Of a stretch of DNA of 64,000 nucleotides, positions 31,183 through 50,421 are shown piece by piece. A program made the position numbers and the translations under genes. The stretch is from contig JABSQZ010000016.1 in assembly GCA_013215505.1 (NCBI GenBank), positions 57,595 to 121,594 on the forward strand, read 5' to 3'. Each line of letters starts with the position of its first letter. Within the stretch, counting starts at the first letter, position 1. Below the pieces are notes generated by a model, which saw nothing but the letters and a program-made list of their open reading frames with translations, ran no database searches and was not told where the DNA came from. This stretch comes from Oceanospirillaceae bacterium (GTDB lineage Bacteria > Pseudomonadota > Gammaproteobacteria > Pseudomonadales > Balneatricaceae).

Positions 31183-31211
31183 TTGACCTGTATTAGTATA
31201 GCCCTTATATA
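31183..31211 (+). promoter_or_regulatory. Sigma-70-type promoter
   Basis: TTGACC (31183-31188) and TATATA (31206-31211) separated by 17 bases, 51 bases before the start codon of the first gene. The operators lie just upstream, so the promoter is probably controlled by the GntR protein of the island. Confidence 0.6.
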
Positions 31212-31262
31212 TTTAACACCCTATGCGGTAAGTCCTCAAAAAAACAACAACGAGGTGGTTCC

Positions 31263-32150
31263 ATGGCGATAAGTGCAAAACAACTGGCTGAAAAGCTGTG
31301 TTGCTGGGAAGTGCCGGTCATCGCTGTACCTTTGGCAGGTGGCCTGACCAATACTAATTTCAAGGTGGGCTACCAAGGTGCTGACTATGTGGTCAGGATT
31401 GGGCAAGACATTCCCGAGCATGGGGTAATGCGTTTCAATGAGTTGAATGCAAGTATCGCAGCATTTAAAGCGGGTATCTCACCAGAAATCATTCACAGTG
31501 CTCCCGGTGCATTAGTGATGCGCTTTATCGAGGGAAAGACGCTGGCTGCAAAAGATATTCGTAATAACGAAACCCTTGAAAAGATCCTGCCGCTGCTGAA
31601 AAAGTGCCATTACCAGCTACCGAGACACTTAAAAGCCGGTGCTTTGAGTTTTTGGGTCTTTCAGGTAATTCGTAATTATGCCGACACTTTGCAAGAGACT
31701 GCCAGTGTCTACAAGAGCAGCCTGGGCAAGCTAATGACGATCAATGACCGATTGGAGAAAGCAGTGGGGAGAGTCAATATTGCCTTCTGCCATAACGATA
31801 TGTTGGCTGCGAACTTCATTAATACTGAAGATAAGTTGTGGCTAATCGATTGGGATTACGCCGGTTTTAATAGCCCATTGTTCGATCTCAGTAACTTGGC
31901 GACTAACAACGATCTGACCCACAGCCAAGAGCGCTGGCTGTTAGACAGTTACTTTGAATGCAATCTATCTGACAAGCTGTGGTACAGCTACTGTGCTATG
32001 AAATGTGCATCGCTGTTGCGCGAATCGATGTGGAGCATGGTAGCGGAGCAGCAATCCAAATTAAATTTTAATTACCGACAGTACAGCCAAGAAAATCTCG
32101 CGCGTTTTGATCGCGCTTACAAAGAATTTATAGAAATTACAAAGGTATAG
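31263..32150 (+). CDS. Choline/ethanolamine-kinase-like phosphotransferase
   Basis: A 295-residue protein of the aminoglycoside phosphotransferase/choline kinase fold. It has the ATP-site GGLTNTNFKV, the Brenner motif FCHNDMLAANFI (catalytic Asp) and the DFG-equivalent LIDWDYAGF. Its likely reaction is ATP-dependent phosphorylation of choline, ethanolamine or a related amino alcohol in the cytoplasm. It starts after GAGGTGG, ends 4 bases before the dehydrogenase-like gene and is the first gene of the block. Confidence 0.85.
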   Translation: MAISAKQLAEKLCCWEVPVIAVPLAGGLTNTNFKVGYQGADYVVRIGQDIPEHGVMRFNELNASIAAFKAGISPEIIHSAPGALVMRFIEGKTLAAKDIRNNETLEKILPLLKKCHYQLPRHLKAGALSFWVFQVIRNYADTLQETASVYKSSLGKLMTINDRLEKAVGRVNIAFCHNDMLAANFINTEDKLWLIDWDYAGFNSPLFDLSNLATNNDLTHSQERWLLDSYFECNLSDKLWYSYCAMKCASLLRESMWSMVAEQQSKLNFNYRQYSQENLARFDRAYKEFIEITKV

Positions 32151-32154
32151 CAAC

Positions 32155-34602
32155 ATGACTTTTCCAACACAGGCAGAAATAGTAATCATTGGCGGCGGAA
32201 TTATTGGCTGTAGCACTGCATATCATCTCGCTAAAGAGGGAGCGAAAGATGTGATTGTTCTGGAGGGCGGGCAATTAACTAACGGGTCAACCTGGCACGC
32301 GGCGGGCTTGGTCGGGCAGTTGCGAAGCTCGGCTAATATCACCCAATTACTAAAAAACTCAGTGGATCTTTACAAGAACCTGGAAGCTGATACAGGCCTG
32401 GCTACGGGCTGGAAGATGAATGGCGGTCTGCGCCTCGCTTGCAATAAAGATCGCTGGACAGAAGTTAAACGCCAGGCGACTACTGCGCATAGCTTTGGCA
32501 TGCCCATGGAGCTACTAACGGCTCGCGAAGCCCAGGATCTCTGGCCGTTGATGGATGTTTCCGATGTGGTAGGTGCTGCCTTTCTGCCAACCGATGGCCA
32601 GGCCAACCCCTCTGATATCACCCAGTCCCTCGCCAAGGGGGCGAGAATGCGCGGCGTTAAATTTTATCAGCAATGCCCGGTAACGGGTATCACTGTTGAA
32701 AATGGTCGGGTCGTCGGCGTCTCCACTGCACAGGGCTTTATTAAGTGCGAAAAAGTCGTTAACTGTTGTGGCCAATGGGCCAAAGAAGTAGGTCGTATGG
32801 CGGGTGTTAATGTACCTCTACAGCCTGTAGAACATCAATATATGGTCACCGAGCCGCTGACACCGAATGCGGTTCCAGGTGATCTTCCAACCTTGAGAGA
32901 CCCGGACCGTTTGATTTACTTCAAAGAAGAAGTGGGTGGTCTGGTTATGGGTGGCTACGAGCCTAACCCTATCGCCTGGGCACGCAAGGGAATTCCGAAA
33001 AATTTCTACTTCTCGCTGTTGAATGAAAACTGGGATCATTTCGAACAATTAATGGAACAAGCCTTGATCCGGGTGCCCTCATTGGAAACCGCAGGGATAA
33101 GAACACTGACTAACGGGCCGGAATCCTTTACTCCAGATGGAAACTTTATTCTCGGGGAGGCGCCAGAGGTGAAGAATTTCTTTGTCGGTGCAGGTTTTAA
33201 TGCCTTTGGCATTGCTGCAGGTGGTGGAGCTGGCAAAGCTTTAGCAGAGTGGGTGTTGGCGGGAGAGCCGCCGATGGACCTATGGCCAGTCGATATCCGA
33301 CGTTTTAGCCAAGTGCATCATGACGATGAGTTCGTTTGCAACCGGACGCTGGAGGCTTATGGCAAGCATTATACTATGAGCTGGCCCCATGAAGAATATG
33401 AGAGCGGACGGCCTATTTTAACCTCATTGCTCTATCAAACATTGAAAGATCAAGGTGCCTGCTTCGGATCTAAAAATGGCTGGGAGCGGCCTAACTGGTT
33501 TGCGCCAGAGGGGGTGGAACCTAAAGATCAGTACTCTTACGCTCGCCAAAACTGGTTCGATGCAGTAGGTGACGAACACCGGGCTGCGCGGGAATCGGCG
33601 GTGGTTTTTGACCAGAGCTCATTTGCCAAATGTGTCATTAAAGGGGCGGATGCCCAGCAAGCGCTTTCATGGGTTTGCGCTAACGATGTTGCGAAACCCG
33701 TGGGTAGCCTCATTTACACGCAACTGCTCAATGACAAGGGGGGTATCGAATGTGACCTGACCGTTTGCCGTGTGGCTGAAGACGAGTACTACATCGTCAC
33801 TGGCACTAGCTTTCGCACCCATGACTTTGCATGGATTGAAAGTAACATGCCACAGGGACTGGATGCACAGCTGACGGATATCACCGAGGGTTGGACGACT
33901 CTTTCGCTGATGGGTCCGGATTCGCGCAGGGTTCTTAGTAAGATCACCAACACCGACCTCAGCAATGACGCTTTCCCATTCGCAACCCTACAGTCGGTGC
34001 AAATAGCGGGCCATGATGTACGTGCGCTACGCGTTACCTTTATCGGCGAGCTGGGTTGGGAGCTGCATATGCCACGCTCTGCGGGTGGGGATGTATATCG
34101 GGCGCTGATGAGTGCCGGCGAAGAGTTCGGTCTGCGCAATGCCGGTTATCGCGCCATTGAGTCTCTGCGACTGGAGAAGGGTTATCGGGTATGGAGTTCT
34201 GACCTCACGCCCGACCACACTCCCTTTGAGGCGGGACTAGGATGGGCGGTTAAATTAAAAAGCGACCTGCAATTTAAAGGCAGAGAGGCACTGGAAAAAC
34301 TGAAACCACAAGCCCTTATAAAGCGGCTGGTTTGCTTCACCGTCAAGGACCCTGATGTGATCCTGTTGGGACGCGAAAGTATTTATCGCAATGGTCAGCT
34401 GGTTGGCTACCTGACCAGTGGCGGCTGGGGGTACACGGTTGAGGCCAATATCGGCTACGGTTATGTTCGCAACCAGGAAGGTGTCGATGTTGAGTATCTC
34501 AAGTCGGGCGAATATGAGCTGGAAATAGCCTGTGAGCGCGTTGCCTGCGAAATCCACCTTGCCCCCCTGTATGACCCAACAATGGCACGGGTCAAAGCCT
34601 GA
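32155..34602 (+). CDS. Dimethylglycine/sarcosine dehydrogenase-like GcvT-fused flavoprotein
   Basis: An 815-residue protein of the dimethylglycine dehydrogenase type. Residues 1-370 form the FAD-binding DAO domain (VIIGGGIIGCSTAYHLAKEG; the STWHAAG motif whose His binds FAD covalently in relatives). The middle linker (FAO_M type) runs to about 430. Residues 430-800 form a GcvT/aminomethyltransferase domain with its C-terminal barrel (GYRAIESLRLEKGYRVW, GLGWAVKLK). The enzyme family removes N-methyl groups from dimethylglycine or sarcosine, passing electrons to ETF and formaldehyde to tetrahydrofolate. The true substrate here is unknown. Confidence 0.88.
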   Translation: MTFPTQAEIVIIGGGIIGCSTAYHLAKEGAKDVIVLEGGQLTNGSTWHAAGLVGQLRSSANITQLLKNSVDLYKNLEADTGLATGWKMNGGLRLACNKDRWTEVKRQATTAHSFGMPMELLTAREAQDLWPLMDVSDVVGAAFLPTDGQANPSDITQSLAKGARMRGVKFYQQCPVTGITVENGRVVGVSTAQGFIKCEKVVNCCGQWAKEVGRMAGVNVPLQPVEHQYMVTEPLTPNAVPGDLPTLRDPDRLIYFKEEVGGLVMGGYEPNPIAWARKGIPKNFYFSLLNENWDHFEQLMEQALIRVPSLETAGIRTLTNGPESFTPDGNFILGEAPEVKNFFVGAGFNAFGIAAGGGAGKALAEWVLAGEPPMDLWPVDIRRFSQVHHDDEFVCNRTLEAYGKHYTMSWPHEEYESGRPILTSLLYQTLKDQGACFGSKNGWERPNWFAPEGVEPKDQYSYARQNWFDAVGDEHRAARESAVVFDQSSFAKCVIKGADAQQALSWVCANDVAKPVGSLIYTQLLNDKGGIECDLTVCRVAEDEYYIVTGTSFRTHDFAWIESNMPQGLDAQLTDITEGWTTLSLMGPDSRRVLSKITNTDLSNDAFPFATLQSVQIAGHDVRALRVTFIGELGWELHMPRSAGGDVYRALMSAGEEFGLRNAGYRAIESLRLEKGYRVWSSDLTPDHTPFEAGLGWAVKLKSDLQFKGREALEKLKPQALIKRLVCFTVKDPDVILLGRESIYRNGQLVGYLTSGGWGYTVEANIGYGYVRNQEGVDVEYLKSGEYELEIACERVACEIHLAPLYDPTMARVKA

Positions 34603-34613
34603 TAGTAATGAAA

Positions 34614-34631
34614 GCCGGGGTTGGACCCGGC
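34614..34631 (+). promoter_or_regulatory. Intercistronic hairpin before etfB
   Basis: GCCGGG and CCCGGC flank a 6-base loop between the dehydrogenase-like gene and etfB. No T run follows. Such stems usually protect or adjust the transcript rather than stop it. Confidence 0.5.
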
Positions 34632-34650
34632 ACTACAGCAGGAAGTAATT

Positions 34651-35400
34651 ATGAAAATTTTAGTAGCGGTAAAACGAGTGGTAGATGCCAATATCAAAGT
34701 TCGGGTACTCTCAGATGAGACCGGCATCGATATGAATGACACCAAGATGGCACTCAATCCATTTTGTGAAATCGCAGTAGAGGAAGCTATCCGGCTGAAA
34801 GAAAGCGGCTCTGCTAGCGAAGTCATCGTCGTCTCTATCGGTCCGGAAAAAAGCCAAGAGCAATTGCGCACCGCATTGGCTCTGGGGGCCGACCGAGCTA
34901 TTCTGCTGCAAACCGATCAAGTAATAGAACCTCTGAGCGTCGCAAAGCTGCTGGCTAAACTGGTGCAAGAGGAACAGCCGGAGTTGGTGATTCTTGGCAA
35001 GCAATCGATTGATAGTGACAATAATCAAACCGCGCAGATGTTAGCAGCACTGACCGGCAGACCTCAGGGCACTTTCATCTCACAACTGAGTGTAGACAAT
35101 TCTGCAATACACATCACTCGCGAAGTTGATAATGGCCTGCAAAAATTGAGCTTACAGCTCCCAGCAGTCGTTTCAGTCGATCTGCGTCTGAATGAACCGC
35201 GCTTCGCATCACTGCCCTCCATTATGAAAGCCAAACGCAAGCCCATTGATAGGCGATCGGCCGAGAGTTTTGGCATAGATCTTAGCCCCCGAATTAAGCA
35301 TCTTAAGATAACCACCCCTGCAGAGCGAAAATCTGGGCAGTTAGTCGCCTCAGTGGCAGAGCTGGTCGGGAAACTAAAATTAGAAGCGGAGGTTATCTGA
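34651..35400 (+). CDS. etfB: Electron transfer flavoprotein subunit beta
   Basis: A 249-residue protein starting MKILVAVKRVVDANIKV behind AGGAAG. It has KMALNPFCEIAVEEAIRLKE and the ALGADRAILLQTD strand typical of EtfB. With EtfA it forms the soluble carrier taking electrons from the dehydrogenase and passing them to ETF-ubiquinone oxidoreductase. The stop TGA overlaps the ATG of etfA by one base. An upstream in-frame ATG (34621) falls inside the hairpin and is less likely. Confidence 0.94.
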   Translation: MKILVAVKRVVDANIKVRVLSDETGIDMNDTKMALNPFCEIAVEEAIRLKESGSASEVIVVSIGPEKSQEQLRTALALGADRAILLQTDQVIEPLSVAKLLAKLVQEEQPELVILGKQSIDSDNNQTAQMLAALTGRPQGTFISQLSVDNSAIHITREVDNGLQKLSLQLPAVVSVDLRLNEPRFASLPSIMKAKRKPIDRRSAESFGIDLSPRIKHLKITTPAERKSGQLVASVAELVGKLKLEAEVI

Positions 35401-36329
35401 TGCGACCATTAGTTATCGCTGAGCACCAGCAGCAAACACTCGATGCAGCCACACTAAGCACCGTCACGGCAGCCCAACAGATTGGCGGAAAAGTTGATCT
35501 TCTCATCTGTGGTGAAAATATCAGCAGCGTTGTGGATCAGGCAGCTAAGATTGAAGGTATCTACCAACTATTGGTGGCAGACCATGTTTGTTACAAAGAT
35601 CAGCTGGCAGAAAATACCAGCAAGCTGCTGCTTACACTTTCCGAAAATTACACCCATATATTTGCCGCTGCGACAACCCAGGGAAAAAATCTACTGCCAC
35701 GCCTCGCTGCTCTTCTGGATGTCCCGCAGCTTTCAGAAATCATTCAGATCATTGATGCCAATACCTTTGTGCGACCAATTTATGCAGGTAACGCACTGGC
35801 GACTGTGCAGCTCGAAGAAGCAACTATCTTAGCGACGGTGCGCAGCACTGCCTTTGATGCAGTGCCTTTTTGTGACGATCAAGCGGTAATTGTCTATCTC
35901 GATGATGTCCACGAAAATGATCTGAGCCGCTTTATAGCAGAGGACCTGAGCCAATCAGATCGCCCGGAGCTTGGGGCTGCGCGCATCGTGGTTTCTGGTG
36001 GCCGTGGCATGGGATCAGGCGATAATTTTTCTTTACTGAATAATGTAGCCGATAAGTTGGGCGCAGCTGTGGGAGCTTCAAGAGCTGCTGTGGACGCAGG
36101 CTTTGCTGCAAACGATATGCAGGTTGGACAAACGGGTAAGATCGTGGCTCCAGAGCTGTATATAGCCGTTGGTATTTCCGGCGCTATTCAGCACCTGGCA
36201 GGGATGAAAGATAGCAAAGTTATCGTCGCCATCAACCAGGATGCCGATGCCCCGATATTTCAGGTTGCTGATTATGGGCTGGTATCCGACCTGTTTGAAT
36301 CGCTACCACAGCTTGAACAGCTACTCTGA
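35400..36329 (+). CDS. etfA: Electron transfer flavoprotein subunit alpha
   Basis: A 309-residue EtfA. The C-terminal FAD-binding domain is complete: [40 protein letters not shown] and [20 protein letters not shown]. It is coupled to etfB by the TGATG overlap. ETF is specific to this operon, as is usual where an N-methylglycine dehydrogenase is the electron donor. Confidence 0.95.
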
Positions 36330-36773
36330 ACCGGAGCAAATATGAAGAGCTTCCCCTGGCAAAGGCGCCTTATCTTATCCGCCTTCTTGCTCGAAAGTTC
36401 TAAGCAGCTTTTACCATCTGTCCCAGAAAATAATTTTCAAGGGGGTAGGGGTGGTTTCTTAACAATCTGTCCGCAATGCAGTTAATTATGCCTTGGCAAT
36501 ATAATGCGTTTATCTGAATATGCCTTACAAATCACTGTTGCGAAAGTTCAAGGTTGGTTCGGTCAAAAAACTGTCCTGGTTAGAAAAATCTGCAATCTGT
36601 GTTTACCCGGATTGCAGATCAGCCACTTCCCATAGAGGTCGACATGAGTGGGTGGAAAATACATGTTTTTATAGAGTTAGCAATATTTGACAAGCGTTTA
36701 CATTATCAATATATGTGATTGCTGGTCGCTCAACAGTCCAATAATAATTGAGCACTTGATAAGGAACCCCCCG
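36330..36773. other. 444-base intergenic region with a 10-base perfect inverted repeat
   Basis: No coding potential. ATCTGCAATC (36588-36597) and GATTGCAGAT (36610-36619) form a perfect inverted repeat around 12 bases, about 155 bases upstream of the gbdR start. It could be an operator of the regulator or a weak terminator of the etf operon; no T run follows it. Confidence 0.5.
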
Positions 36774-37895
36774 ATGAATACAAAGGTTAAAATATCCAGT
36801 GGCGCAAATACCAGGGTCAAAACATCCAATGTTGGTTTTTTGTTATTAGGCGACTATTCAATGATCGCTCTTGCATCTGCAGTAGAGCCTCTGCGTATGG
36901 CCAATCAGCTATCGGGCAAAGAACTCTACAGTTGGTACTTGCTAAGCGCTGATGGTAACAGTGTACAGGCCAGTATTGGGATGCAAGTGCAAGTAGATGC
37001 GTCAATGAGCGGCGCGCCGAAACTGGATACCCTGATCGTTGCCGGCGGCATTAATATCACCAAGAACTACAGTAGAACGCAATTGAATTGGCTGCGAGCG
37101 CAGGCCAACAAAGATGTGATGCTGGGCAGTATTTGTACTGGGGCATACACACTGGCAGATGCGGGGCTGTTGGACGGCTACGATTGTAGCGCCCACTGGG
37201 AATATATAGCGCCATTACAAGAGGCCTTCCCCAAAGTTAACTGCAATCGCCGTCTGTTTACTCACGATCGGAACCGGCTAACGTGTTCGGGCGGCGGTGC
37301 GCCAATGGATATGATGTTGTATGTGATTAGTATGCAACACGGCAGAGCGCTCAGTGGTGCCATATCGGATATGTTTATCTGTGATCGGGTGCGCTCTCAG
37401 GGAGATCAGCAGCGAGTGCCTTTACGTCATCTACTCAGTACTGCTCAGCCCAAGTTGGTGGAGATAGCAGAATTGATGGAAGCCAATATTGAAGAGCCGA
37501 TTGAATTAGATGAACTAGCCTGTTTTGTCAGTGTTTCCAGGCGTCAGTTGGAACGGTTATTCCATCGCTATTTAGACTGCACTCCATCACGTTATTACCT
37601 TAAATTGCGCCTGGAACGGGCCCGGCAGTTATTAAAGCAGACCACGCTTTCTATTCTTGAAGTGTCCTCTGCCTGTGGTTTTGTATCGCCGCCGCATTTT
37701 AGTCGCTGCTACCGTAAGCATATTGGTTTTTCACCCAGCGAAGACCGCACCGGTATGTGGTCTGATGACAGTCTACATGTGTCAAATCCCAGCGAAGGGG
37801 TTGCCCAGCAAGAATTAATGGTTAATAAGGTGATGCAGAATATTTTGAGTGCCGCCCGCGCAGAACCTAGTTTCGCCTCGGTGAGTATTAACTAA
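36774..37895 (+). CDS. gbdR: GbdR-like AraC regulator with GATase1-like domain
   Basis: A 373-residue protein with an N-terminal class I amidotransferase-like domain (GFLLLGDYSMIALASAVEPL, IVAGGINITK, GSICTGAYTLADAGLLDG) and a C-terminal AraC helix-turn-helix pair (ISVSRRQLERLFHRYL type; SACGFVSPPHFSRCYRKHIG). The pattern EPLRMANQLSGKELYSWYLLS is as I recall it from GbdR of Pseudomonas, which senses glycine betaine/dimethylglycine and activates their catabolism. The ATG at 36774 follows AAGGAA. It links this block to N-methylated glycine compounds. Confidence 0.8.
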   Translation: MNTKVKISSGANTRVKTSNVGFLLLGDYSMIALASAVEPLRMANQLSGKELYSWYLLSADGNSVQASIGMQVQVDASMSGAPKLDTLIVAGGINITKNYSRTQLNWLRAQANKDVMLGSICTGAYTLADAGLLDGYDCSAHWEYIAPLQEAFPKVNCNRRLFTHDRNRLTCSGGGAPMDMMLYVISMQHGRALSGAISDMFICDRVRSQGDQQRVPLRHLLSTAQPKLVEIAELMEANIEEPIELDELACFVSVSRRQLERLFHRYLDCTPSRYYLKLRLERARQLLKQTTLSILEVSSACGFVSPPHFSRCYRKHIGFSPSEDRTGMWSDDSLHVSNPSEGVAQQELMVNKVMQNILSAARAEPSFASVSIN

Positions 37896-38307: not shown

Positions 38308-39225
38308 ATGGAAAATTCGTCCAAAAACACATCTCATACATTGTTGATCCGAGAGTATATACTCAGTCTGATCGAGCAAAAAAAAATCAGCCTGCAAAGT
38401 AAACTTCCCGCAGAGCGCATGCTTTGCGAACGTTTCGGCATTACTAGAATTACCCTGCGACAAGCTCTGGTTCAATTAGAAACTGAAGGTTTTATTTACC
38501 GAGAGCATCACAAGGGCTGGTTTGTTTCTCCCGCGCGAATTTTGTATGACCCCACGCAAAATATGAGCTTTACGGAGATGGTATTAAAGCAGAATCGTCA
38601 GCCGAGTAATAAAATACTATCTGCAGAAAAACATCTCGCGACGCCATGGACGAGGGAGTCTCTTAAACTGAAGGAAGACGAAAATGAAGTTTATTGCATT
38701 CGACGTCTTCGCTCAGTCGATGATCGTCCGGTGATGGTCGAGCACTTGTACATCAATGCAGCGCGCTGTGAAAATTTACTGGATGGCCCGATAGAAACCT
38801 CTTTAACTGAAATCCTTAACAGCCAGTATAACATCGTGATTACTCGCTCCAGTGTCCGACTGCATTCGACAGCATTAACTGATGTACAGGCAAAGGACCT
38901 GAACGGCGCCGCAGGTACCCCCTCGATTTATCTGATTCGCACCAACTATGATCAGGACGACAACATCATAGAAGTTGACCAGGAGTTTTGGCGACATGAT
39001 GCCCTTGAGTTAACAGCCAGTTCGCAACTTGAAGCAAAAGCCAAGCAGGATCATGGATCAGTGAGCTTTCCCAGTCAGCTCAGTGGCGAAGAGCGTCAAT
39101 TAATAGAATGCTACCAACAGCAGCTGGGTCTTATGGCTAAAGAACTTGCCCTCTATCGTGCTGCATATCAGCAAGAGCTGAGTGAGATTAAGAAAAGACT
39201 GATCAACCTGGAAGCCAATAAATAA
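38308..39225 (+). CDS. GntR family regulator, HutC/PhnF type with UTRA domain
   Basis: A 305-residue regulator. The winged helix (IREYILSLIEQKKISLQSKL, PAERMLCERFGITRITLRQAL) is followed by a UTRA ligand-binding domain (ENEVYCIRRLRSVDDRPVMV to IYLIRTNYDQDDNIIEVDQEFW) and an extra coiled-coil-like tail after residue 255. This subgroup includes PhnF/PhnR and HutC. It lies between the two divergently oriented blocks of the island and is the best candidate to bind the AATTGTCTAGACAATT operators, whose core fits this class. Confidence 0.85.
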   Translation: MENSSKNTSHTLLIREYILSLIEQKKISLQSKLPAERMLCERFGITRITLRQALVQLETEGFIYREHHKGWFVSPARILYDPTQNMSFTEMVLKQNRQPSNKILSAEKHLATPWTRESLKLKEDENEVYCIRRLRSVDDRPVMVEHLYINAARCENLLDGPIETSLTEILNSQYNIVITRSSVRLHSTALTDVQAKDLNGAAGTPSIYLIRTNYDQDDNIIEVDQEFWRHDALELTASSQLEAKAKQDHGSVSFPSQLSGEERQLIECYQQQLGLMAKELALYRAAYQQELSEIKKRLINLEANK

Positions 39226-42630: not shown

Positions 42631-42712
42631 TGATTTTTTCCTAAAAATTGTTTCGATGACTGACTGAAAGCTAACCAGCTGACCGTTTTATTCAGACTTT
42701 AAGCCTCTGCAG

Positions 42713-44080
42713 CTACGCGCGCTCAAATCCGCGCGCGACTTCCCAGTCTGTGACTTGCTTATCGTATTGGCGCTGCTCCCAGCGAGCGGCATGCACGTAG
42801 TGATCAATCACATCACTACCGAATGCTTCACGCAGCATAGTTGATTGATCAAGTTTCTCAGTCGCCTCGCGCAAGGTGTTTGGCACTTCACGAATGTCCT
42901 GGCCGCCATAGGCATTGCCAACGAATTCAGTTTCTAATTCAAGTTGCTGCTCAATCCCCGCCATGCCCGCTGCCAGCTGACCGGCCAGCGCCAAATACGG
43001 ATTGAGGTCTGCACCACCAATACGGCACTCTATACGGATGGCTTTAGTATTGGCACCGCATAAACGAAACCCAGCGGTGCGATTATCCAAACTCCAGATG
43101 GCCTTGGTCGGCGCAAAAGTCCCCTCGCAGAAGCGCTTGTAGGAATTGACGTAAGGTGCCAAAAAGCAGGTGACGTCATCGGCGTGGGCCAGCAGCCCGG
43201 CCAGATAGTGGCACATCATCTGTGACATTCCGTGTTCGCGACTCTCGTCTAAAAATAACGGCTGCCCTTCCAGGCTCCACATGGATTGATGCACGTGAGA
43301 TGAACTTCCCGCCGAGTTGTTATCCCACTTCGCCATGAAAGTCACAGCCTTACCGTGCCCCCAGGCAATTTCTTTACAGGCATTCTTAACGATTGAATGG
43401 TGATCTGCAGTGGTCAAAGCCTTGTCGTATTTGATATTGATCTCTGCTTGCCCCGCCGAGGCCTCGCCCTTTGAGCACTCCACCGGAATTCCCGCACCGT
43501 ATACGCCGTTGCGCATGGCGCGTATAACAACCTCTTCTTTGGTGGTCTGGAATATGTGGTAGTCTTCGTTGTAATTACTCGCCAGTGGCATGCCCCGGTA
43601 GCCAGCCTGGCAGGCTTCTGCATAGCTTTGATCAAACAGGAAAAACTCAAGTTCTGTGGCCATCATAGGCTGAATACCTAAGTCGACAAAACGCTCAATT
43701 TGCTTGCGTAGAATAGCCCTTGGAGAGTGCGCTATAGGCTGATAGTCATGATGATCCAATACATCGCAAAGCACTAGCGCTGTGCCTTCCAGCCAGGGAA
43801 CCCGACGCAAGGTACTCAAGTCTGGCTTCATCACATAATCGCCGTAACCGGCTTTCCAACCGGTGGATTTATAGCCCTCTACCGTTGCCATTTCTAAATC
43901 GGTGGCTAACAGATAGTTACACGAATGCGTTTCATCGTAAGCATTGTTAATAAAATAATCGGCATGAAAACGCTTGCCCATCAAGCGGCCCTGCATATCA
44001 ACCATACAGGCCAATACAGTATCGATTGTGCCGGCTGCAAATTCTTCTTCTAAGTGCTCTAATGTCAGCATTTTACGCAT
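42713..44080 (-). CDS. Glutamine-synthetase-like ligase (gamma-glutamyl-amine synthetase candidate)
   Basis: A 455-residue protein of the GS fold. The N-terminal part has TVLACMVDMQGRLMGKRF, and the catalytic core shows the Glu triad and His (TELEFFLFD; SAGQAEINIKY; NSAGSSSHVHQSMW), the glutamate-binding Arg (NRTAGFRLCG) and IECRIGGADLNPYLALAG. It is clearly not a nitrogen-assimilating GlnA but the PuuA/GMAS/IpuC-like type, which joins glutamate to an amine with ATP. Next to an amidohydrolase, an ALDH and a GMC enzyme, it fits a protect-oxidise-release scheme like the Puu pathway. Confidence 0.85.
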   Translation of the reverse strand: MRKMLTLEHLEEEFAAGTIDTVLACMVDMQGRLMGKRFHADYFINNAYDETHSCNYLLATDLEMATVEGYKSTGWKAGYGDYVMKPDLSTLRRVPWLEGTALVLCDVLDHHDYQPIAHSPRAILRKQIERFVDLGIQPMMATELEFFLFDQSYAEACQAGYRGMPLASNYNEDYHIFQTTKEEVVIRAMRNGVYGAGIPVECSKGEASAGQAEINIKYDKALTTADHHSIVKNACKEIAWGHGKAVTFMAKWDNNSAGSSSHVHQSMWSLEGQPLFLDESREHGMSQMMCHYLAGLLAHADDVTCFLAPYVNSYKRFCEGTFAPTKAIWSLDNRTAGFRLCGANTKAIRIECRIGGADLNPYLALAGQLAAGMAGIEQQLELETEFVGNAYGGQDIREVPNTLREATEKLDQSTMLREAFGSDVIDHYVHAARWEQRQYDKQVTDWEVARGFERA

Positions 44081-44130
44081 TACAAATCCTCTCTATAACT
44101 TTAGCTTTTACCTCTAACGGAGGTTGGGTG

Positions 44131-44880
44131 CTAGTTCTTAAAACTGTTAAAGGTATCGGCTATCAACCGTGCCCATTGTGTAACGCCCGCTGCTGTTAAT
44201 AGCAGGTCATTACGTATTTCCAGCATGATACTGGCCAATTGATGCTCTTCTGCGTGGCGGGTTACCAAGTGCAATACTGGGTCCGATGGTCCATAGGGCT
44301 CATTGATACGAATATCGTAAGCCTTATTTTTTCGAGCTTGTTGATAAAACGCATCGGCAAAAGGATTATCTGTATCGGAAATGATTCCCAGCTGTACAGT
44401 GCGCTGTCTGCCCAAAAAAATAGGTGTAAAACTATGAATGCTCATCACAATGGTATTTCTACCGGCCGCTTTACGAGCGGCTATTTGAGCGCTGATTGCA
44501 TTGTGAAAAGGCTCATAGATTCGCTCTACCCGATATTCTCTAGCCTCGACACTAAGGCCTAGATTGCCTTTGATTTCTGTTTCTTCACTGAGCTGTGGTA
44601 CTGCACTGGCCTCGTTGGGCGGCCGATTACAGTCATACAGCAAACGTGAGTAACGCTGTACTACCAGAGCGGCATCCAGAGAGTCACTCAACGCTCGGGC
44701 CAATTCTGCCGCGCCTATATCCCAACCAATATGGCTGAGTCTCTGTGCCTCACTCAGGCCGAGGTTGGCAAAACAATCGGGAATAAAATTGCTGGCGTGT
44801 TCACACACCAGCAAAACATCAGAGGCGCCATCAGAGTTAAGTAGCACCGCGGACGGTTGCTCTAATCCTTGCATAATCAT
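44131..44880 (-). CDS. N-formylglutamate amidohydrolase-like hydrolase
   Basis: A 249-residue member of the HutG/N-formylglutamate deformylase family: VLLVCEHASNFIPDCFANLG, HIGWDIGAAELARAL, YSRLLYDCNRPPNE and SIHSFTPIFLGRQR. The family hydrolyses the amide bond of N-acylated glutamates. Here it could release glutamate from gamma-glutamyl-acid. It starts directly upstream of the GS-like gene and is on the same strand, 50 bases apart. Confidence 0.82.
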   Translation of the reverse strand: MIMQGLEQPSAVLLNSDGASDVLLVCEHASNFIPDCFANLGLSEAQRLSHIGWDIGAAELARALSDSLDAALVVQRYSRLLYDCNRPPNEASAVPQLSEETEIKGNLGLSVEAREYRVERIYEPFHNAISAQIAARKAAGRNTIVMSIHSFTPIFLGRQRTVQLGIISDTDNPFADAFYQQARKNKAYDIRINEPYGPSDPVLHLVTRHAEEHQLASIMLEIRNDLLLTAAGVTQWARLIADTFNSFKN

Positions 44881-44989
44881 GCCGCAAGCACTCCTATTTC
44901 TCTCGGTTGAAAAATCAACATTATTAGTTGTCCAAAATCAATTCAGCTAGCCACAATATCAGTTGTGGAAATGCCACAAACAGGAATAA

Positions 44990-45781
44990 TTAGTCAGAGT
45001 TGAGCAATTTTAAGAGCGACTGGTGCAGTTCAGGAGTTGCAGCTGAAAGCACATCTCCTTTAGAGTGCATATCAAGCTTATTGCCCTGCCAATCAGTGAT
45101 AATCCCCCCAGCAGATTGAATGACCATGGATAGGGCAAGATAATCATAAGGTTTTAGGTCGTAATCGATGACCGCGTCAATATGGCCTGCTGCAAGTAGC
45201 GCATGGGGATAGCAATCATAGCCAAATCGTCGCACTTTTCCGGTTGTCAGTAGTCGGCTAAGCTTTTCGGGGTGTTCGCTGAGTAATTTTTCACCTTCAT
45301 TGATGGAGAGCAGGCAATCATCGATATTAATTTGGTCTGAGACTTTGATAGGCTTGCCATTGCAGGTAGCAGGCAAGCCTACACCGCCACTGTAAACCTC
45401 GTTTAACATTGGCATTGAAATGACCCCAGCAGTGGGCACACCAGCTTGTACATAGGCGAGCAACATACCGAACAGTGGATTTCCCAAAACGAAGGATCGG
45501 GTACCATCGATAGGATCGATTACCCAGAGGTTATGGTTAGTTTTCCCGTCGGTTCCACTCTCTTCTCCCAGTATGCCATCCTCTGGGTATTTTGCTGAAA
45601 TTGCTTTTTTTAGTTCACTTTCTATTAGTTGATCAATGACAGTGACAGGGCTCTCATCAGTTTTGAAGCTGACCTGGGTTGGCTGTCGAAAATATTGGCG
45701 AGCCAGCACTGCCGCTTCATCTGCCCAATGTTGGCAATCGGCAAGAATCTCTAAGTAGTTGCTATTGTTCGTGCTTGTCAT
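44990..45781 (-). CDS. Inositol-monophosphatase-family phosphatase (HisN-like)
   Basis: A 263-residue protein from the ATG at 45781, placed after GGAG at good spacing; a TTG four codons upstream is less likely. The metal-binding motifs are complete: ILGEESG (Glu), WVIDPIDGTRSFV (Asp-Asp) and KPYDYLALSMVIQSAGG (Asp). This branch includes histidinol-phosphate phosphatases and inositol phosphatases. In this operon, with an importer and no histidine or inositol genes, I infer a phosphate-ester substrate such as phosphoethanolamine; this is untested. Confidence 0.86.
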   Translation of the reverse strand: MTSTNNSNYLEILADCQHWADEAAVLARQYFRQPTQVSFKTDESPVTVIDQLIESELKKAISAKYPEDGILGEESGTDGKTNHNLWVIDPIDGTRSFVLGNPLFGMLLAYVQAGVPTAGVISMPMLNEVYSGGVGLPATCNGKPIKVSDQINIDDCLLSINEGEKLLSEHPEKLSRLLTTGKVRRFGYDCYPHALLAAGHIDAVIDYDLKPYDYLALSMVIQSAGGIITDWQGNKLDMHSKGDVLSAATPELHQSLLKLLNSD

Positions 45782-45833
45782 TTGTAACTCCAATTATCTG
45801 TATTCATACTGGGGGCGGTATAGTCACTGTCGT

Positions 45834-46601
45834 TTATTTATCGGTAACTATTTCAACACCGGCCCTGGTAAAAGGCTCTATCTGGTCTGGCTTCGCTAAA
45901 TGATCCGTTACCAAATAGTCGATATCACGGGTTTTAGCAAAACGAACACGGCTGGTAGTGCCGAACTTAGTTCGATCACACAAGAGCACGTTTTGACGTG
46001 CTTGAGAGATCATTGTCCTGGCAATTTCGGCCTCTTTTAATGCAAACGAAAACATCCCTTCTTCTGCGTGTACCGCCACCGGACCGATAAATGCCAAGTC
46101 GACATTAAAGCGCCTGATTTCCGATAAAGTGAGTTCGCCATAGGTTGCCGGTACATCTGAAACTATCTGTCCACCCAGTAAGATAAGGTCTATGTCACTG
46201 CCGCTGGATTTGATGGTTTGCGCAATCTCGATTGAGTTAGTGATCAGCATAATTCCCGATAGCTTTGCCAGTGACTGGCCGAAAACTGTGGTCGTGGTAC
46301 CCGCATCAACAAAAATAGAGCTGCCGGGTGGAATTAAAGTGACCGCTTTTCGAGCAATACCTTGTTTGGCTCGTATTTGCTCATCTCTGCGGTTTTCAAA
46401 AGGCGCTTCATGTCCTCTATTGGGTAAAACCGCGCCGCCATGCACTCGGTCAATCAGACCTTTGTTGTCCAGTTCTAGTAAGTCACGGCGCACAGTTTCG
46501 CGAGAGACCTCCAATAGCCCAGCAAGATCATTTGCACTGACTAACTGGTTACCGCTTAACATCGAGAGAATGCGCTGATGTCGCTCCTTCGGCCACATCA
46601 T
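45834..46601 (-). CDS. DeoR family regulator
   Basis: A 255-residue protein with an N-terminal DeoR helix-turn-helix (RILSMLSGNQLVSANDLAGL, SRETVRRDLLEL, then GLIDRVHGGAV) and a C-terminal sensor domain (FVDAGTTTTVFGQSL; ITNSIEIA). DeoR proteins usually respond to phosphorylated sugars or similar. Its start overlaps the stop of the permease gene (ATGA), so it is cotranscribed and may report the phosphorylated substrate. Confidence 0.88.
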   Translation of the reverse strand: MMWPKERHQRILSMLSGNQLVSANDLAGLLEVSRETVRRDLLELDNKGLIDRVHGGAVLPNRGHEAPFENRRDEQIRAKQGIARKAVTLIPPGSSIFVDAGTTTTVFGQSLAKLSGIMLITNSIEIAQTIKSSGSDIDLILLGGQIVSDVPATYGELTLSEIRRFNVDLAFIGPVAVHAEEGMFSFALKEAEIARTMISQARQNVLLCDRTKFGTTSRVRFAKTRDIDYLVTDHLAKPDQIEPFTRAGVEIVTDK

Positions 46602-48259
46602 GCAGATCCAGTGGAGCGTTTAGATTGAATGGATAGTATTAATTTCATAATACCTAGTGCAAGAGCGACAACCGCCATTACACAAGTAGAGAAAGCTGCC
46701 GCTTGAGAAGTTAATCCCGCGTCGTCCAGGCGCATAATTGTCACAGCGGCAACATTAAGTTGCGGTGTGGTTAAAAACACCACTGCTGATAGTGTCACCA
46801 TTGAGCGCATGAAAAGGAAAAAGAACACGGCCACTAGCATCGGAGAAACGAAGGGGGCGATGACGTTGATAGCAGTGCTACCTAATCCAGCCCCTAGAGA
46901 ACCAGAGGCCTCTTCGAGCGCTTTGGGAAATTGACGAAAGCCTGTCATTACGGTCAAAAATGCTTGAGTATGGTAATGATAAAAGTTGATCACGGCAATT
47001 AACGTGGCGGTTCCGTATAACATGTACAGCGGTGTCGACGTGGAGTTAAATGTTAGGATATAGGCCAGGCCTAAGACGATCCCGGGTACCGCCGCCGGCA
47101 TAGCTGCCAGTACTTGTATCGTCTGGGAAATAGCCGCTGGAAGACGCAGCAGACCGAGGTTTAACATGAAAATTAACAAGGTTCCGCCCACTGCTGCAGC
47201 CAGGGAGATCCCAATGGTGATCCACAACGAGCTGTAACCACCTGCGGTCGTGATGTCAAAGTGCTTCAAAGTAAAGTCGAAGTTATAGGGCCAAAGTTTG
47301 ACAAAGCTGGCATAGATGACGATAGCAATAACCGCTAAAATCATTCCGACAATAAAGAAACAGACCCCAGCCATGGGAATATCTCTACTCGCCATGAAGC
47401 TTGGGACAAAGGGCTGTATATTAGTATTGAGCTGTCCTTTTTGGCGCGCCATGGCCTTGCGCTCTATATAGTAAGACACGACGGTCGGCAACAGCAACAT
47501 AATGCCCACCACGGCACCCATATTGAAATTTCGCAAGCCGACAACTTGAGTATATATTTCTGTCGCCAGTACCGAATAATCCCCGGCGATAACCGCGGCG
47601 TTACCAAAGTCGGTGATGGTCACGATAAACACCACAAAACCGGCATTCAATAGAGCGAAGAAGATAGCGGGCAAGGTCAAGTCGCGAAATTGGCGAGTCG
47701 GTTTTGCCCCCATCATTTCAGCGGCTTCATAGACACGTGCATCCAATAGTACGAGCGACGCGCCAATAATCATAACGACTTGCGGAATCGCATAAAGCGT
47801 ATTCGCGAGGGTCAGCCCCCAAAATCCATAAATATCTAATTCGAGGCCGAATACTCGATTAATCACGCCATTGCGCCCTAATAGAAATATCAATCCCAGC
47901 GCCTGGATGAGAGAGGGGGCCAATAGTGGCATGATGATTATCGAGCGTATTATCCACTTGCCACGAAATGAGCAACGGTGTAGTCCGTGAGCTATGATGA
48001 AGCCCAAAAAAACACTGATGATCATGGTAGTGAAACCCATCAACATAGAATGTCGGGTGGCTCGCCAGAACCCAGAAGAGGCGAGGGTATCAGTATAGTT
48101 CTGCAGACCCAGACCACCATCGGCTAATGTGATCGAGCGCATGAAGACAGTAAACATTGGGTAGAGGAAAAACAGCGTTAAACCAATTAACGGAATCACC
48201 AGACAAGCGATTGTCAGTAACTTGTCCCCATCGGGACGTCTTGTGAATACGGAACTCAT
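46598..48259 (-). CDS. ABC importer, fused two-domain permease (FbpB/PhnU type)
   Basis: A 553-residue protein with about twelve hydrophobic segments: two permease domains in one chain, each with its EAA loop (EAAEMMGAKPTRQFRDLTLP and EEASGSLGAGLGSTAINV). This double form is typical of FbpB-like iron and 2-aminoethylphosphonate importers. ATGA overlap with the ATPase gene on one side and the DeoR gene on the other shows tight coupling. Confidence 0.9.
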   Translation of the reverse strand: MSSVFTRRPDGDKLLTIACLVIPLIGLTLFFLYPMFTVFMRSITLADGGLGLQNYTDTLASSGFWRATRHSMLMGFTTMIISVFLGFIIAHGLHRCSFRGKWIIRSIIIMPLLAPSLIQALGLIFLLGRNGVINRVFGLELDIYGFWGLTLANTLYAIPQVVMIIGASLVLLDARVYEAAEMMGAKPTRQFRDLTLPAIFFALLNAGFVVFIVTITDFGNAAVIAGDYSVLATEIYTQVVGLRNFNMGAVVGIMLLLPTVVSYYIERKAMARQKGQLNTNIQPFVPSFMASRDIPMAGVCFFIVGMILAVIAIVIYASFVKLWPYNFDFTLKHFDITTAGGYSSLWITIGISLAAAVGGTLLIFMLNLGLLRLPAAISQTIQVLAAMPAAVPGIVLGLAYILTFNSTSTPLYMLYGTATLIAVINFYHYHTQAFLTVMTGFRQFPKALEEASGSLGAGLGSTAINVIAPFVSPMLVAVFFFLFMRSMVTLSAVVFLTTPQLNVAAVTIMRLDDAGLTSQAAAFSTCVMAVVALALGIMKLILSIQSKRSTGSA

Positions 48260-49284
48260 TCTGCTATCCCTGCCACATCATTTTCCACCCAGATGCAATC
48301 TGCAGGGGCAATATCTAGCGAGACCTTTTGTTTTTCTTTGAGGTCTGTAGCACCATGTACTTCTACTATTAAATTTCCCAGCGGACTAGCCAATTTTATT
48401 TTACTCAAATTGCCCAAAAATCCGATGGATACTATGCTGGCTTCTCCCTTGGGATTAGCTTCAATGCGTATTGATTCGGGTCGAATGCAGGCATCATATT
48501 GATCGTCATCGCCCCCGGGGCGAGTGCTTAATAATTCTGGCATTATGCTTTTTATCTTTTGAGTACTAATCAAATTGCTGGTCCCCATGAAAGTGGCGAC
48601 AAAGCGTGTAGCAGGTTTATGATACAGTTCATGCGGCGTGCCTGATTGGACAACAACCCCTTGGTTCATACAAATAATTTTATCGGCAAGCGCCAGTGCT
48701 TCCTCTTGGTCATGGGTGACCATCAATGTCGGGATACCCAGCGATCTCTGTAGCTGATGAATTTCGTCGCGCAATTCTCCACGTACCTGTGCATCAAGTG
48801 CTGAGAGTGGTTCATCCAGTAATAATACCCGGGGATTAACAGCGATAGCACGCGCCAGAGCGACTCGCTGTTGTTGACCACCTGAAAGTTGTCCGGGGAT
48901 TTTATCCGCGAATTGAGGCAACTTAATAATATCCAATAATTCACTGACACGAGCACTGATTTGATCGGCGGGTATCTTCCTTATTTTTAAGCCGTAGCCA
49001 ATGTTTTCAGCTACTGTCATGTTAGGAAACAATGAATAAGATTGAAAAACGATCCCAAAATCACGCTTACGTGCCGATATCTTTAACAGTGACTTGCCAT
49101 TTAGCTGAACGTCACCTTCATCTAAGTCCGCCAGGCCAGCAATGATACGTAGCAAGCTGGTTTTGCCACAGCCACTGGGTCCTAGAAGGCAGACAAATTC
49201 ACCCTTCTCAATTGATATAGATACATCATTCAACGCTCTGAATGAACCATAGTGTTTGGTTGCGTTGGTAACAGTTAAATACAT
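48256..49284 (-). CDS. ABC importer, ATP-binding subunit
   Basis: A 342-residue ATPase: Walker A GPSGCGKTSLL, signature LSGGQQQRVALARA, Walker B VLLLDEPLSALD, switch His in MVTHDQEEALAL, and a C-terminal TOBE-like domain (residues 270-340) as in FbpC/PotA-like subunits. It is between the binding-protein gene and the permease gene. Confidence 0.93.
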   Translation of the reverse strand: MYLTVTNATKHYGSFRALNDVSISIEKGEFVCLLGPSGCGKTSLLRIIAGLADLDEGDVQLNGKSLLKISARKRDFGIVFQSYSLFPNMTVAENIGYGLKIRKIPADQISARVSELLDIIKLPQFADKIPGQLSGGQQQRVALARAIAVNPRVLLLDEPLSALDAQVRGELRDEIHQLQRSLGIPTLMVTHDQEEALALADKIICMNQGVVVQSGTPHELYHKPATRFVATFMGTSNLISTQKIKSIMPELLSTRPGGDDDQYDACIRPESIRIEANPKGEASIVSIGFLGNLSKIKLASPLGNLIVEVHGATDLKEKQKVSLDIAPADCIWVENDVAGIAE

Positions 49285-49369
49285 TTTCTAATAACTCGAC
49301 TAGGTAATATCGGAACACCGAACAAGAATGAGGTCTGAAGGTTTAGATGATAAAAATAAATATGTGCAT

Positions 49370-49400
49370 ACATGCGGATAGACAATCACTACCCGCATGT
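49370..49400 (-). promoter_or_regulatory. Intercistronic hairpin between binding-protein and ATPase genes, containing an operator half-site
   Basis: ACATGCGG (49370-49377) and CCGCATGT (49393-49400) form a perfect 8-base-pair stem with a 15-base loop. The loop contains ATAGACAATCAC, and GGATAGACAAT (49376-49386) is identical to 11 bases at 50657-50667. As stem-loop it would favour more binding protein than transporter; as operator half-site it may be a secondary repressor position. Confidence 0.55.
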
Positions 49401-49413
49401 CATTTGCTATGGT

Positions 49414-50421
49414 TTATCTACCAAATTTTTCGCGCCACTGAGCCTTAATTTCAGTCTGTCTATTTGCAGATTCAACGAAATTAACTTGCGCAAGGATGGT
49501 GCTTAAATCAGCGGGAAGACCCGATAGTTTCGCCGCTTCAGACTGTTTCACATTAGGTACAGTGATTAATGCCTTAAATTGACCAAACAGTGAAATTGCA
49601 CTATCCGACATGCTCCATTCTAAGAAGCGCTTTGCCGCCGGCTTGTTTTTACTACTGGATAGCAGAGCAGAAGCTTCCAATTCATAACCTACGCCACCTT
49701 TGGGAAATACCATTGCCAACGGGTAGCCATCCTCGATTGAATTCATAGCCGTTAAAGCGACAGAGACACCGACGACATATTCACCGGTACGTGCCATTTT
49801 ACAAGGCTTTGACCCTGACGAAGTATATTGCGCCATGTTGGCATCAACGTCCTGAAGTTGTGCCCAACCTTTTTCAAGACCCATTGATTGCAACACTGCA
49901 TTTACGTGTAAATAGCCAGTACCAGACGAGTTAGGATCCGGCATAACTACCTCTCCTTTAAACTCTGGTTTTGCTAAATCGGCCCAGCTTTGTGGCATGC
50001 TTAAGCCTTTCTGTTTTAGGCGTTCTGTATTTACACAGAATGCGCCCATGTAGCCCATCTGCGAAAACCAACGATCTTTGGCATCGCGAAATTCAGGGGC
50101 AAGTTTTTCGGCTCCCTGCACTTTGACAGGTTCAAGTAATTTAAGAATCTGAGGGTCCATCATAGCGGTGACTGCCCAACCCCAGATTACATCTGCTTGT
50201 GGGTTGCCTGCTTCCGCTAATAGACGTGCACCTAGCTTGCCGGTAGAGAGACGAAGTACATTGATATCAATATCTGGCATTTCTTTCTCGGCAGCCTTTA
50301 CATACACAGCAATCTCTTCTTCTTCAAGAGAAGTGTATAAGGTAAGGGATTCTGAGTATGCGGCAGAGGCTGTACCTAAAAGAATCATCGAGGTTGTGAG
50401 TTTAGCTATTATTTTTTTCAT
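49414..50421 (-). CDS. ABC importer, periplasmic binding protein (2-aminoethylphosphonate/AepX-like family)
   Basis: A 335-residue protein with signal peptide (MKKIIAKLTTSMILLGTASA, cleavage about residue 23). It starts with LTLYTSLEEEEIAVYV as in FbpA-like proteins. The blocks ADVIWGWA, MPDPNSSGTGYLHV and YTSSGSKPCKMA (residue ~205) are, as I recall, those of the 2-aminoethylphosphonate-binding PhnS2/AepX family. No phosphonate-degrading gene is in the window, so the ligand may be an analogue such as phosphoethanolamine. It is the first gene of the block. Confidence 0.85.
   Translation of the reverse strand: MKKIIAKLTTSMILLGTASAAYSESLTLYTSLEEEEIAVYVKAAEKEMPDIDINVLRLSTGKLGARLLAEAGNPQADVIWGWAVTAMMDPQILKLLEPVKVQGAEKLAPEFRDAKDRWFSQMGYMGAFCVNTERLKQKGLSMPQSWADLAKPEFKGEVVMPDPNSSGTGYLHVNAVLQSMGLEKGWAQLQDVDANMAQYTSSGSKPCKMARTGEYVVGVSVALTAMNSIEDGYPLAMVFPKGGVGYELEASALLSSSKNKPAAKRFLEWSMSDSAISLFGQFKALITVPNVKQSEAAKLSGLPADLSTILAQVNFVESANRQTEIKAQWREKFGR

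Follow-up and report, generated by a model that had tools for sequence, protein, structure and literature searches.

Two gene runs at the locus

The window, by which we mean the whole stretch of 64,000 nucleotides that was analysed from a marine bacterium, carries two convergent gene runs that form separate operons. The 15 genes named in the original prediction, on both strands, are all intact open reading frames at the positions it gave, and the families assigned here with Pfam and NCBIfam profile models agree with its gene list. On the minus strand, in order of transcription, lie the genes for a solute-binding protein (SBP; 49414..50421), the proposed phosphoethanolamine binder, for the ATPase (48256..49284) and the fused two-domain permease (46598..48259) of an ABC transporter, these three being TIGR03261-, PhnT2- and PhnU2-like, respectively, each under its cut-off, and for a DeoR/GlpR-family regulator (45834..46601; Pfam/NCBIfam models). 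They are followed by an IMPase-family phosphatase (44990..45793; PF00459), an FGase-family hydrolase (44131..44880; PF05013), a GS-like ligase (42713..44080; PF00120), an aldehyde dehydrogenase (ALDH; 41239..42630; PF00171) and a GMC flavoenzyme (39590..41221; PF00732/PF05199, below the BetA cut-offs), proposed as phosphoethanolamine phosphatase, gamma-glutamylglycine amidohydrolase, gamma-glutamylethanolamide synthetase, maker of gamma-glutamylglycine and gamma-glutamylethanolamide dehydrogenase, respectively. Intergenic distances within this nine-gene run are -4 to 129 bases. A Pho-box scan gave no excess (3 matches vs 3.18 expected), and promoter and terminator scans gave signal at or below shuffle level.

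The plus-strand run begins with a choline/ethanolamine-kinase-like phosphotransferase (31263..32150; PF01633, 94.7 bits, cut-off 29) and a DMGDH-like flavoprotein with folate-binding GcvT domains (32155..34602; PF01266, PF16350, PF01571, PF08669), and continues with EtfB (34621..35400; PF01012), EtfA (35400..36329; PF00766, PF01012), GbdR (36687..37895; NF052371, 572.9 bits, cut-off 480) and a PhnR-like GntR/UTRA regulator (38308..39225; TIGR03337, 243.6 bits, below the cut-off of 296.75). The nearest solved structures of the flavoprotein are those of DMGDH (4pab, 568 bits), with which its WHAAG and HQY stretches align; we take these stretches to have known functional roles in DMGDH.

Whether the minus-strand genes occur together elsewhere was a check proposed in the original prediction, and they do. 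The Osedax symbiont Rs2 carries all nine in identical order at 89-96% identity, and Pseudorhodobacter aquimaris carries the first eight in the order of the window, arguing that the arrangement is not due to chance. The ninth gene of P. aquimaris encodes an iron-type dehydrogenase in the GMC position, and from this equivalence of slots we propose that the GMC enzyme is a functional stand-in for the iron-type alcohol dehydrogenase.

The gamma-glutamylation core

Published studies describe a gamma-glutamylation route for ethanolamine comprising a GS-like ligase, an ALDH, an alcohol-oxidising enzyme and an FGase-like hydrolase; they also report that GlnA4, of a homologous system, forms gamma-glutamylethanolamide in vitro, and that the proteins of a homologous operon in Phaeobacter increase on phosphorylethanolamine. 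The core of the window operon is this known pathway and hence not new, and the label of an undescribed pathway falls for the core, whose chemistry is published for ethanolamine. With the eto systems (C. salexigens, the Phaeobacter eto operon, Streptomyces GlnA4) it shares the ligase, the ALDH, an alcohol-dehydrogenase step and the FGase-family hydrolase, and the chemistry is expected to be the same. The surroundings differ: the eto operon has the TRAP importer EtoXVW and RpiR, neither of which is found within the window operon, whereas the window has an ABC importer, DeoR and the IMPase beside the enzymes. The iron-type alcohol dehydrogenase is likewise absent from the operon, its slot being taken by the GMC enzyme.

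The nearest solved structures to the ligase are 5dm3 (625 bits over 452 residues), which we take to be the Chromohalobacter enzyme, and 11zs (606 bits), the next best reaching 174; the sole PDB match of the FGase-family hydrolase is 2odf (Atu2144). In 21 other GS loci, drawn from class and order samples, GS is 46-73% identical to the window ligase and is accompanied by FGase in 9, EtoX in 11, an iron-type alcohol dehydrogenase in 14 and a GMC enzyme in 1, several of these loci being cut by contig ends. Where FGase and/or EtoX are present (11 loci), GS identity is 46-70%, and 58-70% in 10 of the 11; the window ALDH is 50-69% identical to those near GS in other loci. Another contig of the genome to which the window belongs holds an FGase-EtoX-DctQ-DctM set behind a gene judged by eye to be RpiR-like; in the 20 kb there, a marker search found no GS, ALDH or ADH. 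Since other GS matches in the genome are just 30-33% identical to the window ligase, the window enzymes look like the missing partners of this set, and the genome, having EtoX, need not depend on the window importer.

Importer, regulator and phosphatase across genomes

The AepX-like ABC importer and DeoR form a conserved module. From at least 394 confirmed matches we took the best 80 as named loci, many of them close relatives and 12 shorter than 15 kb; marker thresholds were fixed after inspection of the data, and the markers for EutB, EutC, lyase and phospholipase C were taken from the same loci or from a locus of the same search line. Among these best 80 of at least 394, DeoR is present at 36% identity or more in 62, while the IMPase-like phosphatase is found in 51 and an ethanolamine-phosphate phospho-lyase (ETNPPL/AGXT2L1 family) in 12, with both in 0 and neither in 17. 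The lyase is the partner enzyme in an alternative form of the module and is absent from the window, where the phosphatase holds its place. The only lyase tested, that of L054, has ethanolamine-phosphate phospho-lyase 6tor (2e-105) and phospholyase 5g4i (2e-92) as its best PDB matches, the next being at 1e-54. EutB lies in 12 of the best 80 of at least 394 loci, 11 of them with the IMPase, and the gamma-glutamylation cassette in 6; three EutB and two EutC representatives score above cut-off. As an example, public annotation of an Azospirillum plasmid gives the order eutC-eutB-hisN, then SBP-ATPase-permease-DeoR. Hosts of the module include roseobacters, Azospirillum and Variovorax, the lyase form occurring in enterobacteria and Vreelandella. 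The genes 3' of the module in L053 and 5' of the cassette in L022 were uninformative on the substrate. The cassette may also have other importers as partners, since in one further genome GS-ALDH-FeADH is found ~6 kb away from an AepX-like importer (39%).

The 51 IMPase genes among the best 80 of at least 394 loci are divergent next to the SBP in 44 cases and codirectional in 7, and the two kinds fall in separate groups of an IMPase tree, of which only in-group clades were used (five rows were hand-added, and L178 fills 15% of columns). All 53 of the 53 IMPase rows examined show a DPIDGT-type motif and match two loose motif patterns. Three neighbouring IMPases are publicly annotated as histidinol-phosphatase; the window enzyme falls short of the HisN model TIGR02067, scoring 220.1 bits for a cut-off of 275.15.

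Judging from gene identity, gene order and the choice of partners, the minus-strand operon probably serves phosphoethanolamine utilisation, with importer and phosphatase feeding gamma-glutamylation. Phosphoethanolamine would enter through the SBP-ATPase-permease importer and be split by the IMPase-like enzyme into ethanolamine and phosphate, a phosphorus source; the GS-like ligase would join ethanolamine to glutamate at the cost of ATP, the GMC enzyme and ALDH would oxidise the tagged alcohol to the acid, and the FGase-like hydrolase would release glycine and glutamate, DeoR being the probable sensor of the phosphorylated substrate. The substrates of importer and phosphatase, the GMC step and the DeoR effector are those that we infer; gene context supports the dephosphorylation, coupling to glutamate, two oxidations and hydrolysis that had been predicted. 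Evidence against this reading is that the fetched DNA of 50 of the best 80 of at least 394 loci contains neither a lyase nor EutB nor a gamma-glutamylation cassette, that the 17 noted above have neither phosphatase nor lyase, and that the IMPase family is broad. Within the SBP clade of the window (29 rows), such partners occur only in the window, the Osedax symbiont, P. aquimaris and L079.

Could the importer carry some other phosphomonoester, such as phosphocholine, a sugar phosphate or glycerol phosphate, with a generalist phosphatase and the ethanolamine cassette as a chance neighbour? Closest to the SBP among solved structures are 4r72 (named an Fe3+ transport component; we take it for the sugar-phosphate binder AfuA), 8x1a and 6wce. 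The last of these, a pyridoxal-5-phosphate binding protein, speaks for such a substrate, and sugar/glycerol-phosphate-type operons adjoin two plasmid copies of the module. A phospholipase C matching a phosphocholine-specific model is found in 4 of the best 80 of at least 394 loci (the two tested score above cut-off and both sit between SBP and ATPase), and most alphaproteobacterial copies have no ethanolamine gene nearby. Yet three unrelated ethanolamine-linked partners (lyase, EutB and gamma-glutamylation) recur beside the importer, and we consider this explanation unlikely. That the ligase acts on another amine (putrescine, isopropylamine or methylamine) is less credible still, to the point of being extremely improbable. 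Such GS-like ligases are known, and the Puu and Ipu pathways use gamma-glutamyl tagging with gene sets resembling that of the window; but the ligase scores 199.5 bits against the PuuA model (cut-off 650), the ALDH 211.6 against PuuC (cut-off 850) and glutamate-methylamine ligase 9qur just 132 bits against the ligase, while homologous ligases accompany EtoX in 11/21 loci. The comparison with the Puu models places ligase and ALDH outside the Puu families by NCBIfam cut-off, and the resemblance to 5dm3 makes the ligase one of eto type.

The original prediction allowed for import of a phosphorylated or a phosphonate amino alcohol, and gene context favours the former. An importer of 2-aminoethylphosphonate (AEP), in an operon for AEP use, would fit the top NCBIfam matches of the importer, which are putative AEP importer models, its superfamily and subunit make-up, shared with AepXVW, and the PhnR-like GntR regulator near the operon. 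However, all three subunits score under the cut-offs (339.9/392.75, 461.1/593.25 and 408.5/457.7 for TIGR03261/03262/03265), in the SBP tree the importer lies outside the AepX-like group (support 98/96), it adjoins a phosphatase or phospho-lyase, and cleavage of a C-P bond would not be expected of an IMPase. No AEP catabolic enzyme was found among the 15 genes of both runs with Pfam/NCBIfam, nor was PhnW matched in the genome at E<=1e-20 in a search without positive control, and we set AEP aside as a very unlikely substrate. Seven rows (L055-L061) are called AepX-like on grounds of similarity; of these, L057 alone is shown to sit beside PhnW and PhnX, and in L056 and L059 the neighbours that were tested are not phosphonate genes. 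The genome of L057 holds both kinds of importer, an AepX-like one with PhnW and PhnX above cut-off and a window-type one with the lyase (L054). In the SBP alignment, positions were listed at which the 66 rows linked to phosphatase or lyase differ from 5 of the AepX-like ones.

Phosphatidylethanolamine, whose head group is phosphoethanolamine, ranks among the main membrane lipids of bacteria. A 2023 study of marine phospholipid use reports that mutants in phoX and phoB retain growth on phosphorylethanolamine, and leaves undecided whether the cells rely on other phosphatases for this or take up the head group intact (PMC10132767). To this question the module contributes concrete candidates for an importer and a phosphatase. 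MED193_11419, 11424 and 11439, which appear in tables of that study as PotA, PotD and GlpR, may be members of the module. What looks new, and seems to be without a name, is the front end for uptake and removal of phosphate; if phosphoethanolamine is its substrate, this would correct the public plasmid annotations of module genes as 'ABC transporter substrate-binding protein' and 'histidinol-phosphatase', and supply a marker gene for head-group uptake.

Relation to the demethylation operon

Coupling of the minus-strand genes to the demethylation operon had also been proposed, as unproven. In its favour, the GS-like ligase is present in 18/21 kinase-bearing genomes vs 22/328 without kinase, a difference that relatedness inflates (the Fisher tests handled phylogeny by genus-level repeat only, and in the class sample genus g219 was counted as shared with kinase and GS in different genomes); against it, the runs are convergent and not one operon. 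A window-type importer as general companion of the kinase was rejected: the SBP was found at E<=1e-60 in 10 of 42 genomes (20 kinase-bearing, 22 with GS and no kinase) and at 48% or more in 2 only, where DeoR, IMPase and lyase all went undetected nearby. The scarcity of the SBP suggests that the link of the kinase is with the GS-like ligase, not with the window importer.

The plus-strand operon may simply carry out ordinary dimethylglycine demethylation in glycine betaine catabolism under GbdR, unrelated to ethanolamine, and we give this slightly less than an even chance. GbdR above its cut-off, the DMGDH structures nearest to the flavoprotein and the convergence of the runs all point this way, as do importer genes of ProXVW/ChoXWV type, present in 6 of the 26 other kinase loci (one permease tested exceeds the cut-off for choline permeases, and the binding protein that goes with it scores below cut-off). 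But betaine breakdown needs no kinase, and a DMGDH-like gene shares the locus with the kinase in 24/26 cases, directly adjoining it in 22; nor would it account for the company of the GS-like ligase or for EutH, which comes after the kinase-DMGDH pair in L190. More tentatively, and on balance doubtfully, both runs could work as a single system that handles lipid head groups whether methylated or not. N-methylated ethanolamines would be phosphorylated by the choline-kinase-like enzyme, and the phosphorylated amine would then be demethylated to phosphoethanolamine by the DMGDH-like flavoprotein together with EtfBA and folate, phosphate replacing the carboxylate of dimethylglycine in the substrate; the product would join imported phosphoethanolamine on its way through the IMPase to gamma-glutamylation. 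If true, this would be a phosphorylated-intermediate route for amino alcohol demethylation. An IMPase gene also lies in three kinase loci, among them L161, whose enzyme scores barely above the cut-off of the HisN model (275.6 against 275.15) and is placed among the divergent IMPases.

Two convergent gene runs and the gamma-glutamylation core

Both runs lie exactly at the coordinates of the original prediction, and they are convergent. The minus-strand run (50421 to 39590) comprises nine genes separated by intergenic gaps of -4 to 129 bases and looks like a single operon. It encodes, in order, a solute-binding protein (SBP), an ATPase, a fused permease, a DeoR regulator, an IMPase-family phosphatase, an FGase-family hydrolase, a GS-like ligase, an aldehyde dehydrogenase (ALDH) and a GMC flavoenzyme. 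The plus-strand run (31263-39225) encodes a choline/ethanolamine-kinase-like protein, a DMGDH-like flavoprotein carrying folate-binding domains, EtfB, EtfA and two regulators: GbdR, which exceeds its model cut-off, and a PhnR-like GntR protein, which stays below its own. A second GMC gene (25642-27270), next to an IclR regulator, exceeds the NF002550 (choline dehydrogenase) cut-off.

Against solved structures, the ligase matched 5dm3, which we take to be the Chromohalobacter salexigens enzyme, with 625 bits and 11zs with 606 bits, the next glutamine synthetase reaching only 174 bits; PuuA was ruled out by the NCBIfam cut-off. The hydrolase had a single PDB match, Atu2144. According to PMC6529630, Streptomyces GlnA4 makes gamma-glutamylethanolamide in vitro, and the subsequent steps are predicted to involve a dehydrogenase, an aldehyde dehydrogenase and a member of the formylglutamate-amidohydrolase family. 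In Phaeobacter grown on phosphorylethanolamine, the matching proteins increase together with EtoX, a TRAP ethanolamine-binding protein (PMC10132767). The core of what had been predicted as an undescribed pathway is already in print, in these two papers, as the ethanolamine gamma-glutamylation route.

At E<=1e-100 the ligase was found in 17/369 genomes of the class and 6/145 of the order (the window's genome counted in both). Among 21 other ligase loci, several of them broken by contig ends, we detected an iron-type ADH in 14, EtoX in 11, FGase in 9 and a GMC enzyme in one. Three eto-like cassettes (L129, L141, L142) carry ligases just 31-33% identical to the window's, with ALDH and Fe-ADH 52-66% identical to the markers; these ligases may be a second lineage serving the same pathway. 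At L022:5764-14333, GS-ALDH-GMC is followed by an isochorismatase-domain hydrolase, with phoB-phoR and a BrkB-like gene upstream and no FGase detected nearby.

All nine genes of the operon recur in the Osedax symbiont Rs2, in the same order and with 89-96% identity. Pseudorhodobacter aquimaris keeps the first eight in order and orientation, with an iron-type ADH in the ninth place; this replacement points to the GMC enzyme as the putative alcohol-oxidising step.

The importer module and its predicted substrate

Scanning named genomes with a three-SBP alignment gave at least 394 confirmed matches, and neighbours in the best 80 loci were scored with tblastn markers. Among these best 80 of at least 394, an IMPase-like gene was present in 51 (divergent and directly beside the SBP in 44, codirectional in 7) and an ethanolamine-phosphate phospho-lyase in 12, with both in none and neither in 17; DeoR was found in 62, EutB in 12, phospholipase C in 4, and ligase, ALDH and ADH together in 6. 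The assignment as a lyase comes from a single member, that of L054, which matched 6tor (ethanolamine-phosphate phospho-lyase) at 2e-105 and 5g4i (phospholyase) at 2e-92, against 1e-54 for the next class III enzyme; the 12 lyases are 75-89% identical to it. Scores above cut-off were obtained for representatives of EutB (three), EutC (two) and phospholipase C (two), and both phospholipases sit between SBP and ATPase. The module adjoins eutC, eutB and 'hisN', as annotated, on an Azospirillum plasmid; on a Klebsiella plasmid its neighbour is a class III enzyme that shares 74% identity with the lyase of L054. In Roseovarius amoyensis the module adjoins a complete EtoX cassette. Another genome (G014) carries the module with IMPase on one contig (L053) and an EtoX cassette on another (L025).

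Phospho-lyase, EutB, gamma-glutamylation and phospholipase C converge on phosphoethanolamine, and ethanolamine from it, as the shared substrate. We consider it likely that the operon imports phosphoethanolamine: the IMPase-like enzyme would dephosphorylate it to ethanolamine, which would be gamma-glutamylated and yield glycine and glutamate. Against this stand 50 of the best 80 (of at least 394) loci, in whose neighbourhood neither lyase nor EutB nor cassette was detected, and the window's own SBP clade, where only four of 29 rows (the window, Rs2, P. aquimaris and R. amoyensis) have any of the three. Two plasmid copies are moreover flanked by sugar-type operons, and public records name some neighbouring IMPases histidinol-phosphatase. 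No phosphoethanolamine importer was found in open-licence literature, and one may be described elsewhere; the Phaeobacter paper (PMC10132767) states that intact head-group import is still to be determined, and the word ethanolamine is absent from the AepXVW paper.

The AepX-like importers, which resemble the 2-aminoethylphosphonate importer AepXVW, form one group of seven rows on the SBP tree (support 98/96). In a control genome (G365) one is accompanied by PhnW and PhnX, both exceeding their cut-offs, and a separate locus pairs an importer of the window's kind with the lyase; at AepX-like loci L056 and L059 the tested neighbours were not phosphonate genes. The lyase label requires two changes among the 90 rows of the tree, which suggests at least two separate origins of the lyase form. 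Another AepX-like importer (L195, G517:C11; 39%) lies ~6 kb from a GS-ALDH-FeADH cassette. In one SBP subgroup (L121, L124, L128, L130-L132, L135-L137, L139, L143-L145) no DeoR (>=36%), IMPase or lyase was detected. The SBP of L132, a 'Bacillus subtilis' record, is identical to a Pseudochrobactrum's, and a 'Dysgonomonadaceae' plasmid (H14) scores the same as a Martelella plasmid; both records are probably mislabelled or contaminated.

An apparently split pathway in the window's own genome

The eto pathway appears to be divided over two contigs in this genome. Contig C1 (27000-46900) carries FGase-EtoX-DctQ-DctM behind a divergent gene, RpiR-like as judged by eye, and in this 20-kb stretch tblastn with the markers detected neither ligase nor ALDH nor ADH. 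The remaining GS matches in the genome are 30-33% identical to the window's ligase, and neither EutB nor PhnW was found at E<=1e-20 (run without positive control). The window's enzymes are therefore probably the genome's ethanolamine enzymes, sited with a second importer. At C9:49853-51097, a 1043-residue open frame includes a domain of the class III aminotransferase type that shares 36% identity with the phospho-lyase.

The kinase-DMGDH run and its link to the ligase

Taken by itself, the plus-strand operon is most simply read as ordinary dimethylglycine demethylation under GbdR. The original prediction tentatively coupled it to the minus-strand run, and here the evidence divides: the runs are convergent, but kinase and ligase co-occur. 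At E<=1e-40 the kinase was found in 7/369 class and 21/349 phylum genomes (own genome counted in both). Across the phylum, the ligase (E<=1e-90) was present in 18/21 kinase-bearing genomes vs 22/328 without kinase (Fisher p 2e-16; 17/20 and p 2e-15 without the window's genome; by genus, own excluded, 8/11 vs 19/173, p 1e-5), and across the class in 4/7 vs 13/362 (own excluded 3/6, p 0.001). These values are inflated by relatedness, one family supplying 13 of the 21 kinase-bearing genomes of the phylum sample. This co-occurrence suggests that the kinase-DMGDH pair yields something consumed by the ethanolamine pathway.

A DMGDH-like gene (47-80%) was present in 24 of 26 other kinase loci, directly adjoining the kinase in 22. 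Of the 26 loci, 6 contained ProXVW/ChoXWV-like importer genes, three an IMPase (L161, narrowly above the HisN cut-off, L178 and L179) and one EtfBA (L158). Profile tests, which covered some loci's neighbours, placed EutH (417 bits, cut-off 25) beside the pair in L190. A second kinase-DMGDH pair (69% and 80%) lies at C23:45000-64900 in the window's genome, where genes for a DeoR-like regulator and an importer of the ProXVW/ChoXWV type precede it.
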